Position numbers and translations under genes: made by a program
The notes under the pieces: generated by a model
What the model was told of the DNA's origin: nothing
Seen by the model: only the letters and a program-made list of their open reading frames with translations
The model's database searches: none
In this document: positions 6,912 through 44,754 of the stretch, in pieces
Layout of the letters: the number at the start of each line of letters is the position of its first letter
How positions within the stretch are numbered: position 1 is the first letter of the stretch
Origin: an uncultured Methylophaga sp.
Lineage (GTDB): Bacteria > Pseudomonadota > Gammaproteobacteria > Nitrosococcales > Methylophagaceae
Direction: 5' to 3'
Length of the DNA: 64,000 nt
NCBI GenBank assembly: GCA_913055695.1
Contig: CAJXKF010000002.1
Coordinates: 62,001-126,000 of the forward strand

Positions 6912-8213
6912 TTGAGCCAAGATACGCGAGAAAGCCCGCAACAACATGCCCAACGTCGCTTTGGTCGCCGCCTGCGCGAACATATTCTGGTCGAGTTTCG
7001 TGAGCTATTCGCCGACCATGACGACTATGAAGACGATGAAGGCCTGGGCGTCCATGCACTGTTACGCGATGCCGTAAAAGCCAGAGCGTCAGATATACAT
7101 ATTGACCCGTTTCCCGGCCACTATCAGATTCGTCTCAGAATCGATGGTGTCATGATCGATGTTATCGAGATTAGCCCTGAGCAGGGGCAGCGTCTCGCTC
7201 ACCAATTCAAGGTGCTCGCGAATATCGACCCCTTACCCAGCGTGAACTGCGATGAAGGCCGTTTCAGTTATGACATGAACGAACAGTCGCTGGATTTAAG
7301 GGTCACAGCCGTGCCCTGCGTGTCTGGTGATAAGCTGGCCATTCGTGTTTTATCCCCACCACAAGCTGTTAAGGAAGTGCGTCAACTCGGCATCCATCAC
7401 AAAGGCGTTGAATCCATACGGCGCTGGATGGACGCGAATGGCAGCATGTTTCTGGTGGCAGGCCCCACTGGTAGCGGTAAAACCACAACTCTCTATGCCT
7501 TGCTGCACGAACTCAAATTGAATGACAGTCACGTCATTACCCTTGAAGAGCCAGTGGAATACGAAGTGCCGGGTATTAACCAGATTCAGGTGAATCCGAC
7601 GCATGACCTCACATTCGCCAATGGCAGCGAAGCCATGCTGAGGCTCGACCCGGACTATGTGCTTATTGGTGAAATCAGAGATGTCCCCTCAGCCCGGGCG
7701 GCGGTTAATATTGCCACCAGTGGCCGGGCTTTGATGGCGACGCTGCATAGCCGGGACGCGGTTGGCACCATTACGGCTTTGCGAAATATGGGGCTGGATG
7801 ATTACGAAATCTCAAGCAACCTCGGGTTGGTGGCCGCACAAAGACTGGTTCGCATGTTGTGCCCGGAATGCAAAGTCGAAGATAAGCCTGACGATATTGA
7901 GACAAAATGGCTTCAGGAGCAGGGACGCGAAGTGCCTGCTAAAGTCTGGCGTTCTGAAGGCTGCCCCGCTTGTAATGATCTGGGTTACAAAGGTCGTCTT
8001 GGCATCTTTGAAATCTGGCAGCCGACCGAGCAGGACTTCGCCATGATCCTTAACCACGAGGATGAACACTCGCTGCGTCATGCCCTGATTGAGCGTGGCG
8101 AAATGCTGATGCTGGATGATGGTCTCATCAAAGTCGAAGAGGGCCTGACCACCTTGCGTGAGTTGCTGCAGACCGGCATGTCACTGCCGGGTTACCGGCC
8201 GCAGAAATCATAG
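6912..8213 (+). CDS. Orphan GspE/PilB-type secretion ATPase
   Basis: A hexameric traffic ATPase of the type II secretion/type IV pilus family, expected at the cytoplasmic face of the inner membrane. The 433-aa protein has an N2-like domain with ASDIHIDPF, Walker A GPTGSGKTT (about 184-192), the Asp box, Walker B near LDPDYVLIGEIRD, and a four-Cys zinc site (CPEC about 316, CPAC about 350). It lacks the N1 domain of full-length GspE. TTG 6912 is chosen because GGAGGAG lies six nt upstream; in-frame ATGs at 6783 and 6879 lack such a site and the first would read through a repeat. No pilin, secretin or inner-membrane platform gene is adjacent. Confidence 0.85.
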   Translation: MSQDTRESPQQHAQRRFGRRLREHILVEFRELFADHDDYEDDEGLGVHALLRDAVKARASDIHIDPFPGHYQIRLRIDGVMIDVIEISPEQGQRLAHQFKVLANIDPLPSVNCDEGRFSYDMNEQSLDLRVTAVPCVSGDKLAIRVLSPPQAVKEVRQLGIHHKGVESIRRWMDANGSMFLVAGPTGSGKTTTLYALLHELKLNDSHVITLEEPVEYEVPGINQIQVNPTHDLTFANGSEAMLRLDPDYVLIGEIRDVPSARAAVNIATSGRALMATLHSRDAVGTITALRNMGLDDYEISSNLGLVAAQRLVRMLCPECKVEDKPDDIETKWLQEQGREVPAKVWRSEGCPACNDLGYKGRLGIFEIWQPTEQDFAMILNHEDEHSLRHALIERGEMLMLDDGLIKVEEGLTTLRELLQTGMSLPGYRPQKS

Positions 8214-40930: not shown

Positions 40931-40960
40931 TACGCTGATTTCACCGATTTTTAAATAAAG

Positions 40961-41165
40961 AACCACAGAGTCACAGAGGACACAGAGTTTTTACTGCATA
41001 GCTACTGACGATTGATGGTCAGGACATAAGATAAGTCTAGTGCTGCTTTATCAAGTGTTCCAAACTGCTCTGATTAAGCCGAGTCGACTCTGGGAAGCCA
41101 TACTGTGAAGGCGATGTAAAATAGAAGCATTTTATTTCTCTGTGCTCTCTGGGCCTCTGTGGTTG
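40961..41165. repeat. Pair of inverted ACCACAGAG repeats
   Basis: AACCACAGAGTCACAGAGG (from 40961) and its approximate complement ending CTCTGTGGTT (to about 41165) flank roughly 150 nt with no gene. This tandem CACAGAG motif is a common intergenic repeat. It separates the DUF1244 gene from the convergent anti-sigma gene. Confidence 0.6.
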
Positions 41166-41195
41166 TTAATTATCCAGTGTAATCTGCGGAAAAAT

Positions 41196-41435
41196 TCAAG
41201 ACTCAGTCTTGGATATCGTCCGCAGTTTTTCCGCCAGCGCCTGGGTATCTGTCTGATGCTGTTCCTGAGGACGTAGTATCGCCACGGTGCTGATCGTCTG
41301 ACGGATCTGCTGCATGTAACGACGACAGCAGCTGCAATACACCAGGTGCAGTAACAAACCCAGCCGCTTGGCTAGTGGCAGATCGCCATCCAGATAGTTA
41401 CTGGCTTCTTCAGCGACATCTTTACATTCAAACAT
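41196..41435 (-). CDS. Zinc-finger anti-sigma factor (zf-HC2 type)
   Basis: A 79-aa protein with the anti-sigma zinc motif HLVYCSCC (His-x3-Cys-x2-Cys, about 30-37) in the context LDGDLPLAKRLGLLLHL, typical of small cytoplasmic zf-HC2 anti-sigma factors. It has no transmembrane segment. ATG 41435 is chosen; the TTG immediately before it (41438) gives one more residue. It follows the ECF sigma gene by three nt, and the two form the usual sigma/anti-sigma pair. The signal released through its zinc site may be redox or metal stress. Confidence 0.85.
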   Translation of the reverse strand: MFECKDVAEEASNYLDGDLPLAKRLGLLLHLVYCSCCRRYMQQIRQTISTVAILRPQEQHQTDTQALAEKLRTISKTES

Positions 41436-41438
41436 CAA

Positions 41439-42050
41439 TTAACTTTCCTGATATTGCTCAATACTGTGATGCAGTGCCGTTCTGGCGCGATGCAGCAAGA
41501 CTCTCGCATTAGACGCAGAGAGGTCCAGAATGTTACAGATTTCTGTCATTTCCAGACCTTCCATATCAGCCATGGTCAGAACGGCACGTTGATGAGGGGG
41601 TAAGTTCTGATAGCTGCGCTCAATGACCTGCCTGAGTTGCTCGTTTTCCAGAAGAGCTTCCGGTGTGTCGATATTCCATGGCAGCACATCATCAATCCGA
41701 TGACCGCGTTGGTTGAACTTGTAGTCCGGTTCAGCCTGCCAGCCATCATCCAGAGACAGTTGCCGACTTTCACGCCGCAGTCTGGTTTTGGCACCATTGC
41801 TGGTGATTTGCAACAGCCAGGTCTTAAGCGAAGCCCGTCCTTCAAAGCGGGGAAGTGCCTTGATAGCAGAAACCCATGCGTCCTGTACGACTTCATCAGC
41901 AAAAGCCTCACCGATGATTGCTCTGGCGACAGACAGCATGAGGCTGTGATAACGGCCGACAACGTATTCAAAGGCAGCGGCATCGCCTTCAATCAACTTT
42001 GCGATCAGCGCCTTTTCGTCCATTTGCCCGGCAGATGCAATTTTTTTCAT
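41439..42050 (-). CDS. ECF-family RNA polymerase sigma factor
   Basis: A 203-aa sigma-70 factor of the extracytoplasmic-function type. Region 2 is seen as FEYVVGRYHSLMLSVARAIIG and ADEVVQDAWVSAIKALPRFEG. Region 4 is LPPHQRAVLTMADMEGLEMTEI followed by LDLSASNARVLLHRARTAL. The open frame extends to 42128, but ATG 42050 is preferred because the longer version would translate the promoter region shared with the divergent hvfA-like gene. The pair probably controls that gene and the following DoxX/MsrPQ genes, comparable to the control of bufferin operons by ECF factors in other proteobacteria; this last link is inference. Confidence 0.87.
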   Translation of the reverse strand: MKKIASAGQMDEKALIAKLIEGDAAAFEYVVGRYHSLMLSVARAIIGEAFADEVVQDAWVSAIKALPRFEGRASLKTWLLQITSNGAKTRLRRESRQLSLDDGWQAEPDYKFNQRGHRIDDVLPWNIDTPEALLENEQLRQVIERSYQNLPPHQRAVLTMADMEGLEMTEICNILDLSASNARVLLHRARTALHHSIEQYQES

Positions 42051-42057
42051 TCCGTTT

Positions 42058-42084
42058 GTAACAATCACAGAATACAAAAGTCTA
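42058..42084 (+). promoter_or_regulatory. Candidate ECF sigma promoter of the hvfA-like gene
   Basis: GTAAC (42058-42062), a 17-nt spacer and GTCTA (42080-42084) resemble ECF-type -35 and -10 elements. They lie between the sigma gene start and the hvfA-like gene. Position and spacing fit, but no second copy in the window confirms it. Confidence 0.35.
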
Positions 42085-42148: not shown

Positions 42149-42475
42149 ATGGCTACAAAAAGAACTTCAATTGCAATTGCTGCCAGTGCCGCAATGACAG
42201 CAGGTCTGGTGCTGTCACCCAGTATCGCCAGTGCAGAAAATCCATTTGCTGCTCAGGAACTGTCCAGTGGTTACATGCAACTGGCAGAACATCACGCTGA
42301 AGAAGGTAAATGTGGTGAAGCCAAATGTGGCAGTGAGATGAAGAAAGACAAAATGGAAGAAGGCAAGTGCGGCGGTGATAAGAAAGCCGAAGAAGGTAAA
42401 TGCGGCGGTGAAATGAAAAAAGAGAAAATGGAAGAAGGCAAGTGCGGTGAAGCGAAGTGTGGTGGCAACAAATAA
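42149..42475 (+). CDS. HvfA/bufferin-like Cys-rich precursor peptide
   Basis: A 108-aa exported peptide. The signal peptide ends near ASA-E (residue 30). The segment NPFAAQELSSGYMQLAEHH then leads into repeats of EGKCG (four copies) and EAKCG (two copies) separated by KK/E spacers. EGKCG is the motif that MNIO (DUF692) enzymes convert to oxazolone/thioamide groups in HvfA and bufferin RiPPs, which bind copper. The MNIO enzyme and its partner are not adjacent, although a DoxX-like gene follows as in many such loci. ATG 42149 has AGAAGGG upstream. Expected location is periplasmic or secreted. Confidence 0.83.
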   Translation: MATKRTSIAIAASAAMTAGLVLSPSIASAENPFAAQELSSGYMQLAEHHAEEGKCGEAKCGSEMKKDKMEEGKCGGDKKAEEGKCGGEMKKEKMEEGKCGEAKCGGNK

Positions 42476-42501: not shown

Positions 42502-42527
42502 GATAAGGGCTCAATTGAGCCCTTATC
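42502..42527 (+). terminator. Perfect 26-nt palindrome between the hvfA-like and doxX-like genes
   Basis: GATAAGGGCTCAATTGAGCCCTTATC is self-complementary over its whole length (13 bp per arm). The following CTATTCAT is not a strong T run, so it is likely a partial terminator or an mRNA-stabilising hairpin that keeps the peptide message more abundant than the downstream genes. Confidence 0.55.
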
Positions 42528-42548: not shown

Positions 42549-43178
42549 ATGTCTCTGACAAAACTGGGTTGTAGCCTGAAAAACGGGCTTGATAAAACCC
42601 GCTGTGTCGATTTTCTGGCACCGTTGTTATTGCGGCTTTATCTGGCACCGGTTTTCTGGGTGGCTGCCAACAACAAATGGAATCCGTTTGATGCTGACAG
42701 CTCGCTGGAAAACACGATTAACTGGTTTGCCAATCCTGACTGGGGATTGGGTCTGCCATTTCCAGAGCTGATGGCCTATCTCGCCTGGGGCGCTGAGTAT
42801 TTCGGTGCCATTGCCTTGCTGTTGGGCCTGGCTCTGCGCTGGATGGCGATTCCTCTAATGGTCACGATGATTGTGGCTGCGGCCACAGTGCATTGGCAAA
42901 ATGGCTGGCAGGCGATACATGACAGGATGAGTGCCTTTCCTTCAGAAAATATTGACGCTGCGATGGATAGGCTGGAGAAAGCTCGCAATATTCTGCAGGA
43001 GCATGGCAACTACGACTGGCTGACTGAAACCGGCAATTTTGTTGTGCTCAATAATGGTATTGAATTTGCCGCCACTTATTTTGTCATGTTGCTGACCTTG
43101 TTTTTTATCGGTGCCGGTAAATATCTGAGCCTGGATTACTGGATTGTGCGTCAGTGCCGTCAACACCGAGGTGATTAA
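42549..43178 (+). CDS. DoxX-like membrane protein
   Basis: A 209-aa inner-membrane protein with about four hydrophobic segments. The first block LLLRLYLAPVFWVAANNKWNPF and the next LMAYLAWGAEYFGAIALLLGLALRW match the DoxX/DUF6-membrane quinone-related family often found beside MNIO/HvfA genes. Between helices 3 and 4 a longer periplasmic segment carries HWQNGWQAIHDR. It ends one nt before the msrP start codon, so the two are co-transcribed. It may pass electrons from the quinone pool to periplasmic redox reactions. That is inference from family members. Confidence 0.82.
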   Translation: MSLTKLGCSLKNGLDKTRCVDFLAPLLLRLYLAPVFWVAANNKWNPFDADSSLENTINWFANPDWGLGLPFPELMAYLAWGAEYFGAIALLLGLALRWMAIPLMVTMIVAAATVHWQNGWQAIHDRMSAFPSENIDAAMDRLEKARNILQEHGNYDWLTETGNFVVLNNGIEFAATYFVMLLTLFFIGAGKYLSLDYWIVRQCRQHRGD

Positions 43179-44138
43179 ATGTTTATCAAACGCAGAAAAC
43201 CCTGGGACCTGCCTGAGTCAGAAATCACTGACTACAAGGTCTACAAAAACCGCAGACAGTTTCTGAATACGGCTATCTCCGTTGGCCTGGCATCAGCCTT
43301 GCCTTCAGTCGGGCTGGCCAAACCGGTCGATGAGCTGAAGGTGTTTGAAACGCTGAAGAAAAGTCAGTATTCCACTGATGAGGAAAAAACCACTTTCAAA
43401 GCCATTACCACCTACAACAATTTCTATGAATTTGGCACCAGCAAAGAAGCGCCGTCTCTCTATGCCGGCGAGTTTCCCGATGAGTCCGAACCCTGGCGGG
43501 TGGAGATAGACGGAGAGTGCGAAAATCCGGGCGTATTTGAATACGACCAACTGGTCAAACCATTCACGCTGGAAGAACGTATTTACCGGATGCGTTGTGT
43601 TGAAGGCTGGTCGATGGTCATACCCTGGATTGGTTTTCCATTGGGAGAGCTGCTGAAACAGGCCAAGCCGACATCCAAAGCCAAATATGTCGAGTTCACT
43701 ACGTTGTATGATCCGGAGCAGATGCCCGGCCAGCGTCGTGAAGTGCTGGACTGGCCCTATGTCGAAGGGCTGCGTATTGATGAAGCCATGCATCCCCTGA
43801 CCATTTTGTCAGTAGGCCTCTACGGCAAGGAACTGCTGGGTCAGAATGGCGCACCGATTCGACTGGTGGTGCCCTGGAAATATGGCTTCAAGAGCATCAA
43901 GTCAATTGTACGCATTCGTTTTGTCGAGAAGATGCCGTTGACGGCCTGGGTCAAAGCCAATTCCAGCGAATACGGGTTTTATTCCAATGTGAACCCGAAT
44001 GTCGATCATCCGCGCTGGAGCCAGCGTAAAGAGCGTCGAATCGGTGAGTTTCTCAAACGCGATACACTGATGTTTAACGGATATGGTGATTATGTTGCTG
44101 AACTCTATTCAGGCATGGACCTCAAGCGCTATTTCTAG
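43179..44138 (+). CDS. msrP: Periplasmic methionine sulfoxide reductase, molybdenum subunit
   Basis: Repairs oxidised methionine in periplasmic proteins. The 319-aa precursor has a twin-arginine signal ([16 protein letters not shown], about 27-42). The molybdopterin Cys lies in [21 protein letters not shown], a signature of MsrP/YedY, followed by [16 protein letters not shown] and [15 protein letters not shown]. Length is close to E. coli MsrP. It overlaps the msrQ gene by more than 50 nt. The upstream hvfA-like and DoxX genes point to shared induction by oxidants or copper. Confidence 0.95.
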
Positions 44139-44754
44139 CAAAGACCGAAACAGCCTGATCAAGATCCGCCACCTCAAGCTAGTGTTGTTTCTGGTTTGTC
44201 TGTATCCGTTTATGTTTATGCTATGGGGCTTTTTCAGCCATCAGCTTGGTGCCAACCCGATTGATGCCGTAACGCGATTGAGCGGACTTTGGGCTTTGCG
44301 ATTTTTGTTGATAACGCTTTGCGTCACACCACTGCGATGGCTGACCGGTCTCAATCAACTGGTACGTTTTCGGCGGATGCTGGGGCTGTTCGCGTTTTTC
44401 TATGCCACCGTGCATATGCTGCTGTATCTGGGTCTGGATCAGTTTTTTGACTGGAGCGAAATCTGGCGGGATATTGTTAAACGCCCCTTTATCACAGTGG
44501 GCTTTATCAACTTTGTGGCTTTGCTGCCACTGGTCATCACCTCAACCAATAAAATGGTTAAACGCCTGGGTGGGCAGCGCTGGAAGAAACTGCACCGACT
44601 GACTTACTTTGTAGCAGCGGCGGCCTGTGTGCATTTCCTGATGCTGGTCAAAGCTGATATTCGTGAGCCAGTCATCTACATTATTATCCTCAGTGTACTG
44701 CTGGGAGTGCGTTTGCTGCATGCCGCACGTCACAAGAAGCTCAGCCACAAGTAA
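44083..44754 (+). CDS. msrQ: Heme-binding membrane subunit of the methionine sulfoxide reductase
   Basis: Passes electrons from the respiratory chain to MsrP. The 223-aa protein has about six transmembrane helices and the ferric-reductase-like histidines in [15 protein letters not shown] and [29 protein letters not shown] and [17 protein letters not shown] are further MsrQ marks. ATG 44083 is used, although ATG 44092 would also fit; both lie within msrP. It ends the island and is followed by two terminator-like hairpins. Confidence 0.93.

Follow-up and report, generated by a model that had tools for sequence, protein, structure and literature searches.

Among the systems closest to the locus described here is HvfABCX (oxazolin) of Haemophilus influenzae. 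According to the accessible parts of two reports, thiooxazoles are installed by HvfBC with a preference for the full-length precursor, which gives the Sec signal a leader-like role (PMC13419390, PMC13097082). Under HOCl, an H. influenzae cluster of DoxX, periplasmic, UPF0276 and DUF2063 genes is reported to be RpoE2-dependent, as are msrAB and mtsZ (PMC7907618), and by our reading of its gene content this DoxX cluster is hvfX-A-B-C. Fontiphorin, gonophorin and bulbicupramide are reported as thiooxazole products, with copper binding (PMC13097082, PMC12538549). A copper role is not to be assumed, because in the accessible account of the Microbulbifer EGKCG genes the proteins were undetected with or without added copper and there was no copper response (PMC12538549). 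The survey by Antoine et al. (2025; PMC12452194), in its accessible text, describes bufferin precursors that lie away from MNIO genes and suggests their modification by an MNIO encoded elsewhere, reports oxidored_molybd and ferric-reductase genes in a few EGKCG clusters, and ties sigma factor and NrsF genes to Buf1.

The locus considered here lies in a 64,000-nucleotide stretch (the window) of a contig from an uncultured Methylophaga sp. An open reading frame at 42149..42475 (+), which a first-pass annotation had called an HvfA/bufferin-like precursor with EGKCG/EAKCG repeats and a leader, is present as described. It has an ATG start and encodes 108 aa with six KCG motifs (four EGKCG and two EAKCG; six Cys), an N-terminus that looks signal-like by eye, and the leader ENPFAAQELSSGYMQLAE, of the NPF...GY type. 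NF050137 (KCGExKCG_twice, 'HvfA family ... metallophore') matches at 39.1 bits (cut-off 19.5, E 4.2e-10), and the HvfA equivalog NF050188 aligns with residues 6-106 (E 5.3e-11) at 43 bits, below its cut-off of 95. On these matches the gene, hvfA, is assigned to the wider HvfA family of RiPP precursors and, because the NF050188 cut-off is missed, not filed as the HvfA equivalog. The HvfA half of the earlier name thus stands, and the bufferin half is imprecise: the maturase belongs to the HvfB type, and some relatives have bufferin clusters of their own. A bufferin identity (Buf1/DUF2282, BufA2) was dropped, as neither signature is among the Pfam or NCBIfam matches of the window hvfA and the genome has no DUF2282 precursor over cut-off. 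The leader motif is kept in 40/40 distinct MsrP-linked HvfAs and in 16/20 HvfB-linked ones, the four misses being short frames in L046 and L050 and divergent sequences in L074 and L078. By analogy with characterised precursors, the cysteines are predicted to become thiooxazoles and the product to bind copper. Tandem hvfA copies precede hvfX in L036 and L070; in L036 each copy has the promoter motif discussed below, and the first is down to two KCG motifs.

The gene order is hvfA-hvfX-msrP-msrQ, with an ECF sigma/zinc anti-sigma pair divergent from hvfA. The earlier statement that only a DoxX-like gene follows was right about the DoxX gene, which is an HvfX-family membrane protein (42549..43178, +; NF050144, 240.6 bits, cut-off 80), but not about "only". 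The ATG of msrP, for a periplasmic protein-methionine-sulfoxide reductase and molybdoenzyme (43179..44138, +; NF003767, 470.6 bits, cut-off 207; PF00174), abuts the hvfX stop, and msrQ, for its haem-binding membrane partner, comes next (44083..44754, +, exact start uncertain; NF003831, 183.1 bits, cut-off 130; PF01794). Both msrPQ and the sigma/anti-sigma pair had been overlooked. The hvfA-hvfX spacer (folding energy -26.0 kcal/mol) contains a hairpin, GATAAGGGCTC-AATT-GAGCCCTTATC, at 42502..42527 (+). A stem of at least 9 bp occurs in 35 of 38 distinct orthologous spacers, and 29 of the 38 are matched by at most 2 of 50 shuffles. The hairpin could possibly be an attenuator or a 3'-end stabiliser, which would leave precursor mRNA in excess over the downstream message.

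The divergent sigma factor is encoded at 41439..42050 (-), with a start at 42023 or 42050 in an open frame that extends to 42128. It matches TIGR02937 (sigma70-ECF; 81.7 bits, cut-off 42.9) and, above cut-off, Pfam Sigma70_r2 and Sigma70_r4_2, and has a homologue in 47 of 57 family genomes (E<=1e-30). The anti-sigma factor (41196..41438, -) matches NF052368 at 53.8 bits (cut-off 50) and Pfam zf-HC2 at 19.4 bits, below the cut-off of 22.2. Its C-X25-H-X3-C-X2-C arrangement is of the zinc (ZAS) type, defined by C/H-X23-26-H-X3-C-X2-C. The form C-X23-26-H-X3-C-X2-C, quoted in the accessible text of PMC7907618, is found in the window protein and in 37 of 38 distinct orthologues. Beyond the anti-sigma gene, the intergenic stretch 40953-41170 of the window has inverted ends rich in CACAGAG/CTCTGTG, and ~27-41 of its bases recur across the genome (19 matches including itself, the other 18 partial); it probably represents a dispersed palindromic repeat.

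So where is the maturase? None was found beside hvfA, in line with the first-pass annotation. In the window's own assembly (G000; 2.61 Mb, 12 contigs, 99.98% complete), the genome-wide DUF692/DUF2063 search that had been proposed yields one HvfB-HvfC pair, on contig C12. The sole DUF692 match (C12:6036-6821; profile search, E<=0.001) is on a different contig from hvfA and is HvfB by score (447.2 bits, cut-off 360), with BufB reaching only 280 against 310. HvfC follows (315.3 bits, cut-off 142), with DUF2063 and NGO1945_C domains. Over almost its entire length HvfB can be aligned with 3BWW, a DUF692 protein of solved structure (E 6.2e-75), and the stretches HGLSLS, HLS, ENxSYY, DVNN, HIAGH, DTHG and LERD, which we take to hold metal ligands, are common to both. 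The window hvfA is the only KCG precursor in G000 in a search to E 10. A maturase operon with only its own precursor had been named as grounds for rejecting action on hvfA; by eye, no KCG frame and no small Cys-rich, signal-bearing frame lies beside hvfBC. The gene that precedes hvfB, here called UP (L002:5191-5943, G000:C12), encodes a signal-bearing 250-aa protein of no known family, with no Pfam match at E<=1, no PDB relative better than E 0.26 and a chance-level NCBIfam match (E 0.083). It is conserved and apparently exported, has an invariant CxC in 42 aligned rows (its own copy is repeated among these), and could be another HvfB substrate.

The nearest named neighbours of the window HvfX are from Methylophaga, and the module is also present in records of M. 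thiooxydans (L051) and M. aminisulfidivorans (L012). The separation of precursor and maturase extends through the family, Methylophagaceae. Among 57 family genomes, a DUF692 gene is present in 51, HvfX over cut-off in 48 and a KCG precursor in 48. Good genomes (≥90% complete, ≤5% contaminated) number 36. In 35 of these the KCG precursor and the DUF692 gene occur together, and both are missing from the last, G003 (1.1 Mb), along with HvfX and the sigma factor, so that the two genes are present or absent together in 36/36. A precursor with no DUF692 match occurs in G045 and G046 (85% and 55% complete), and the reverse in G009, G018, G026, G030 and G031, all <90% complete. The 50 family HvfB regions that were fetched are all free of KCG genes. 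Eight genomes have precursor and DUF692 gene on a single contig, and there the distance between them ranges from ~49 kb (G034) to ~2.46 Mb (G037, on a contig of 3.1 Mb; ~650 kb should this be circular).

All 22 fetched family hvfA loci have the sigma factor (cut by the contig end in L114), hvfA, hvfX and msrP; msrQ is present in 21, L107 ending at a contig edge before it, and an anti-sigma gene was recognised in 20 (exceptions L113 and L114). The usual order at the other locus is UP-hvfB-hvfC-<KDPG aldolase, with UP unrecognised in 10 of 50 loci, two of them near contig ends. Of the 80 named HvfX loci, 33 combine HvfA with MsrP and the sigma factor but contain no HvfB, and 20 combine HvfA with HvfB and HvfC but contain no MsrP; at least one of these genes is missing in the remaining 27, some of them at contig ends. 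A FastTree phylogeny with six bufferin-type MNIOs as its root groups all 50 remote HvfBs in a single clade (support 0.94) that excludes the 22 HvfBs of named loci.

A promoter motif is shared by the two unlinked loci. In an unbiased scan, GTAAC-N17-GTC (equivalent to TGTAACA-N16-GTC) was the top gapped word upstream of hvfA and, separately, of hvfB. The window copy, an ECF-type TGTAACA-N16-GTCT supported by the gapped-word scan and by conservation, lies at 42057..42083 (+), and a copy ending in GTC precedes hvfB at G000:C12:5952-5977. Within 370 bases upstream, exact matches occur in 41 of 42 distinct hvfA sequences, a pool of named and family loci in which some species are counted twice; the lone miss is the second of the two tandem copies in L070. 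The corresponding figure for remote hvfB genes is 49 of 50, with one mismatch in G039. That count covers 50 of 51 HvfB-type genes, the hvfB of G009, which begins at contig base 2, being left out. Matches are absent before UP (0/40), before hvfX (0/42, in a shorter window) and before other, bufferin-type maturases (0/5), and the background in fetched family loci is 31 matches per 1,147,204 strand-bases, or ~0.01 per upstream window. Other spacings of GTAAC and GTC are rare (for hvfA, 13 in 11 upstreams and 14 in two; for hvfB, 19 in one). Between the boxes the sequence is highly variable, and therefore conservation of the motif is not mere recent identity. Within its own genome the GTC form is not enriched (5 matches, against 4 for the reversed pattern), and position and conservation were for that reason used as criteria. 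Across 24 genomes of the genus, TGTAACA-N16-GTCT has 77 sites and the reversed pattern 23. The window also has an exact GTAAC-N17-GTC match at position 8171 (-). The AAC...GTC form resembles ECF promoters. In the accessible text of PMC8315932, the ECF16 consensus is given as (T/C)GTAAC-N17-CGAA, which has the same -35 as the hvfA motif and a different -10.

The bufferin-type loci act as an internal control, in which precursors are clustered with a maturase that does not have the shared motif. Each of the five maturases counted above (L157-L161) adjoins its own Cys-rich precursors; the second MNIOs of L094 and L098 stand outside the motif scan. Profile models were run on L098, which has BufA2 (110.2 bits against 60) and BufB (393.1 against 310), and on L161, which has a DUF2282 precursor (89.9 against 22.4) and a BufB-like enzyme slightly under cut-off (289.4 against 310). 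L098, L158 and L160 are separate clusters of this kind in relatives, each with a bufferin-type maturase (identified by models in L098) that is preceded by one, two or three genes for Cys-rich precursors.

The divergent sigma factor would fit as the reader of the motif, and the co-occurrence of the two in MsrP-less loci agrees. Of the 46 named loci that lack MsrP, five have a sigma homologue, and in four of these (L062, L071, L079 and L082; not L076) the motif stands before hvfA or hvfX; it does so in 1 of the 41 where no homologue was recognised (L026). Only 2 of 21 HvfAs in MsrP-less loci have the motif, and therefore this promoter is not general to the HvfA family. Three good genomes with HvfA and HvfB (G014, G022 and G027) have no such sigma factor at E<=1e-30, and their hvfB genes keep the motif. 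The hvfA locus of G014 is broken between contigs; G022 and G027 are 99% complete, and there the motif may be read by another sigma factor or be a relic. The sigma gene itself contains a copy of the motif (window 41512, -), in a stretch that encodes conserved protein sequence. In L164 and L165 such a GTAAC-N17-GTC copy, on the strand of the sigma gene, precedes the anti-sigma start by 75-77 bases, and several other genomes have it in a like position. This copy may be a coincidence of protein sequence or an internal promoter.

The putative regulon may extend further. We followed up 20 regions from the 77 sites (recurrent between genomes or near candidate genes) and two sites of the window's own genome (L162, L163), running profile models on one example of each candidate. 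A SoxH-like PQQ-relay (quinoprotein-relay) metallohydrolase (L162:1828-2846, G000:C3; 397.7 bits against 280) has the motif 53 bp before its start and is on these grounds a candidate further member; the motif also stands before genes for similar proteins in three other genomes. Further sites lie before genes for DsbD (four genomes; L166: 575.7 against 330), a small DoxX-like protein (three genomes; L176: Pfam DoxX_2, 57.4 against 26.3) and an Slp-family lipoprotein (two genomes; L170: Pfam Slp, 141.8 against 22.5). Other regions were dropped: L163, L173-L175 and L182, where the site is within a long open frame; L178 and L179, with no downstream start of a frame ≥60 aa; and L171, at a contig end.

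We consider it highly probable that the window gene encodes an HvfA-family metallophore precursor on which the maturase HvfBC acts in trans, within an ECF envelope-stress regulon. Action in trans had been one of two options in the first-pass annotation, and is now well supported by the remote HvfB-HvfC pair, the lack of any precursor of its own seen beside it, the family-wide co-occurrence and the shared promoter motif. The model builds on gene identities, the uniqueness of the pair in the genome, the family-wide split and the fixed spacing of the motif, and adds to these a predicted sigma-promoter recognition, chemistry, export, copper binding and inducing signal. Envelope stress, probably oxidant and/or copper, would free the ECF sigma factor from its zinc anti-sigma factor (41196-42050), and the freed sigma factor would transcribe the two unlinked operons, hvfA-hvfX-msrP-msrQ and hvfB-hvfC, from TGTAACA-N16-GTC. 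In the cytoplasm, HvfC would recognise the HvfA signal/leader and HvfB, by analogy with characterised HvfBC, would oxidise the KCG cysteines to thiooxazoles before export. The modified HvfA would then bind copper in the periplasm, the same compartment in which MsrPQ would repair oxidised methionines. A link between a thiooxazole peptide and MsrPQ is plausible because MsrPQ of E. coli is reported to be copper-induced and to protect a copper chaperone (PMC9302797). The best reading, again by analogy, is that the regulon resembles that of RpoE2 in H. influenzae.

Could the remote HvfBC instead act on something else, such as UP, and HvfA remain a plain, unmodified Cys-rich periplasmic peptide? MNIO substrates are normally marked by adjacency, UP is conserved and apparently exported with its invariant CxC, and the accessible text of Antoine et al. 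(PMC12452194) allows for unmodified precursors. However, UP does not share the promoter motif, and phmmer (E<=1e-6) failed to find it next to hvfB in eight loci with ~2.9 kb of upstream sequence (L133, L140, L144, L146, L148-L151). The universal leader motif of MsrP-linked HvfAs, the HvfB type of the remote maturase and the joint presence or absence of precursor and DUF692 gene in every good genome also argue for HvfA as the substrate. An unmodified peptide with its own role, the other option of the first-pass annotation, is chemically possible and finds no positive evidence here; we regard this explanation as unlikely.

Two further explanations were weighed. HvfA might mainly be a sacrificial methionine scavenger that is recycled by MsrPQ, like MrpX/BcrX, with its cysteines and the maturase secondary: hvfA shares an operon with msrPQ and diverges from an ECF sigma gene, the window copy has Met in its repeats, and the Brucella bcrXQP operon is reported to be HOCl-induced and to have a TGTAAC -35 (PMC8315932). 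Yet Met content does not track MsrPQ linkage, with repeat-region means per 100 residues of 2.5 in MsrP-linked HvfAs (n=40, two of which contain runs of N) and 3.6 in HvfB-linked ones (n=20; Mann-Whitney p=0.48), and several MsrP-linked repeat regions are Met-free. An MrpX-type identity for the window gene was dropped on this lack of Met excess and on its MXKDX (TIGR02953) match at E 6.4, and the scavenger explanation, not supported by these data, seems very improbable. It is extremely improbable, in our judgement, that both loci are relics of a cluster that broke up, with one half decaying. The window parts are all intact open frames with model matches, the sigma factor, hvfA, hvfX, msrP and msrQ recur together in 21/22 fetched family hvfA loci (with the sigma gene of L114 cut by a contig end, and L107, the exception, cut before msrQ), and the motif is conserved on both operons; in favour of decay are the broken gene order relative to contiguous hvf clusters and the reduced genome G022, where HvfX is in two pieces with in-frame stops.

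Action in trans on HvfA, our preferred reading, bears on how RiPPs are found. Genome mining seeks precursors that adjoin their enzymes, and here a neighbourhood search would yield an orphan precursor and an orphan maturase. Precursors with no MNIO neighbour, their possible modification from another locus and the occasional molybdo- or ferric-reductase gene in EGKCG clusters are already in print, in the accessible text of PMC12452194. What appears to be new is a fixed, family-wide split joined by one promoter, together with a divergent zinc anti-sigma system and msrPQ, of which no earlier description was found in the literature searched (subscription journals mostly lay outside it). A whole bacterial family thus separates precursor from maturase, apparently tying both by promoter, and the question left by Antoine et al., whether precursors with no MNIO neighbour are modified from elsewhere or never, becomes a testable case of one precursor and one maturase. 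The module joins a probable copper-binding thiooxazole peptide, methionine repair by MsrPQ and a zinc anti-sigma sensor.

More speculatively, and with low confidence, the operon might be a quinone-fed periplasmic redox buffer, in which thiooxazole-bearing HvfA would serve as a sink for oxidant (HOCl) and copper and be regenerated by HvfX and/or MsrPQ. The ECF regulon (HvfA, HvfX, MsrPQ and HvfBC, and in some species DsbD, the small DoxX, the Slp lipoprotein or the SoxH-like metallohydrolase) would then be a dedicated envelope sulfur-redox response, with RiPP maturation a trans-acting service and not a gene cluster.

How does this arrangement compare with the known systems? In the ECF16-type mrpX (bcrX)-msrPQ systems, the peptide presumably has no KCG repeats, and we take the anti-sigma factor to be of the NrsF type, unlike the ZAS of the window. 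As reported for Azospira and Brucella, these systems are like the window in bringing together an ECF sigma factor, a small periplasmic peptide and MsrPQ, and in a TGTAAC -35, whereas their peptide is Met-rich and their -10 is of the CGAA type, in place of GTC (PMC8315932). The fontiphorin, gonophorin and bulbicupramide clusters resemble the window in their EGKCG precursor, MNIO and DUF2063-type partner; in the accessible text of the reports their precursor and enzymes are in one cluster and msrPQ goes unmentioned, whereas the Methylophaga system is split and has msrPQ (PMC13097082, PMC12538549). Stand-alone Buf_EGKCG/oxazolin precursors are also covered by the survey of Antoine et al., whose accessible text describes for EGKCG precursors neither a conserved lineage-wide split nor a common promoter nor a divergent sigma factor of the sort seen in Methylophaga (PMC12452194). 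With HvfABCX of H. influenzae the window system has in common the precursor family, HvfB, HvfC and HvfX, and with the RpoE2-HrsE regulon an ECF sigma factor with a ZAS-type anti-sigma factor and a link by regulation to methionine-sulfoxide reductases (PMC7907618, PMC13419390). Assignment of the window pair to the RpoE2/HrsE, SigE-like class is by the ZAS pattern and does not imply orthology to RpoE2 or SigE. As far as the accessible reports describe it, H. influenzae has the four hvf genes in one cluster and msrAB and mtsZ elsewhere, whereas Methylophaga has hvfA-hvfX with msrPQ and the sigma/anti-sigma pair, and hvfBC at a remote locus.
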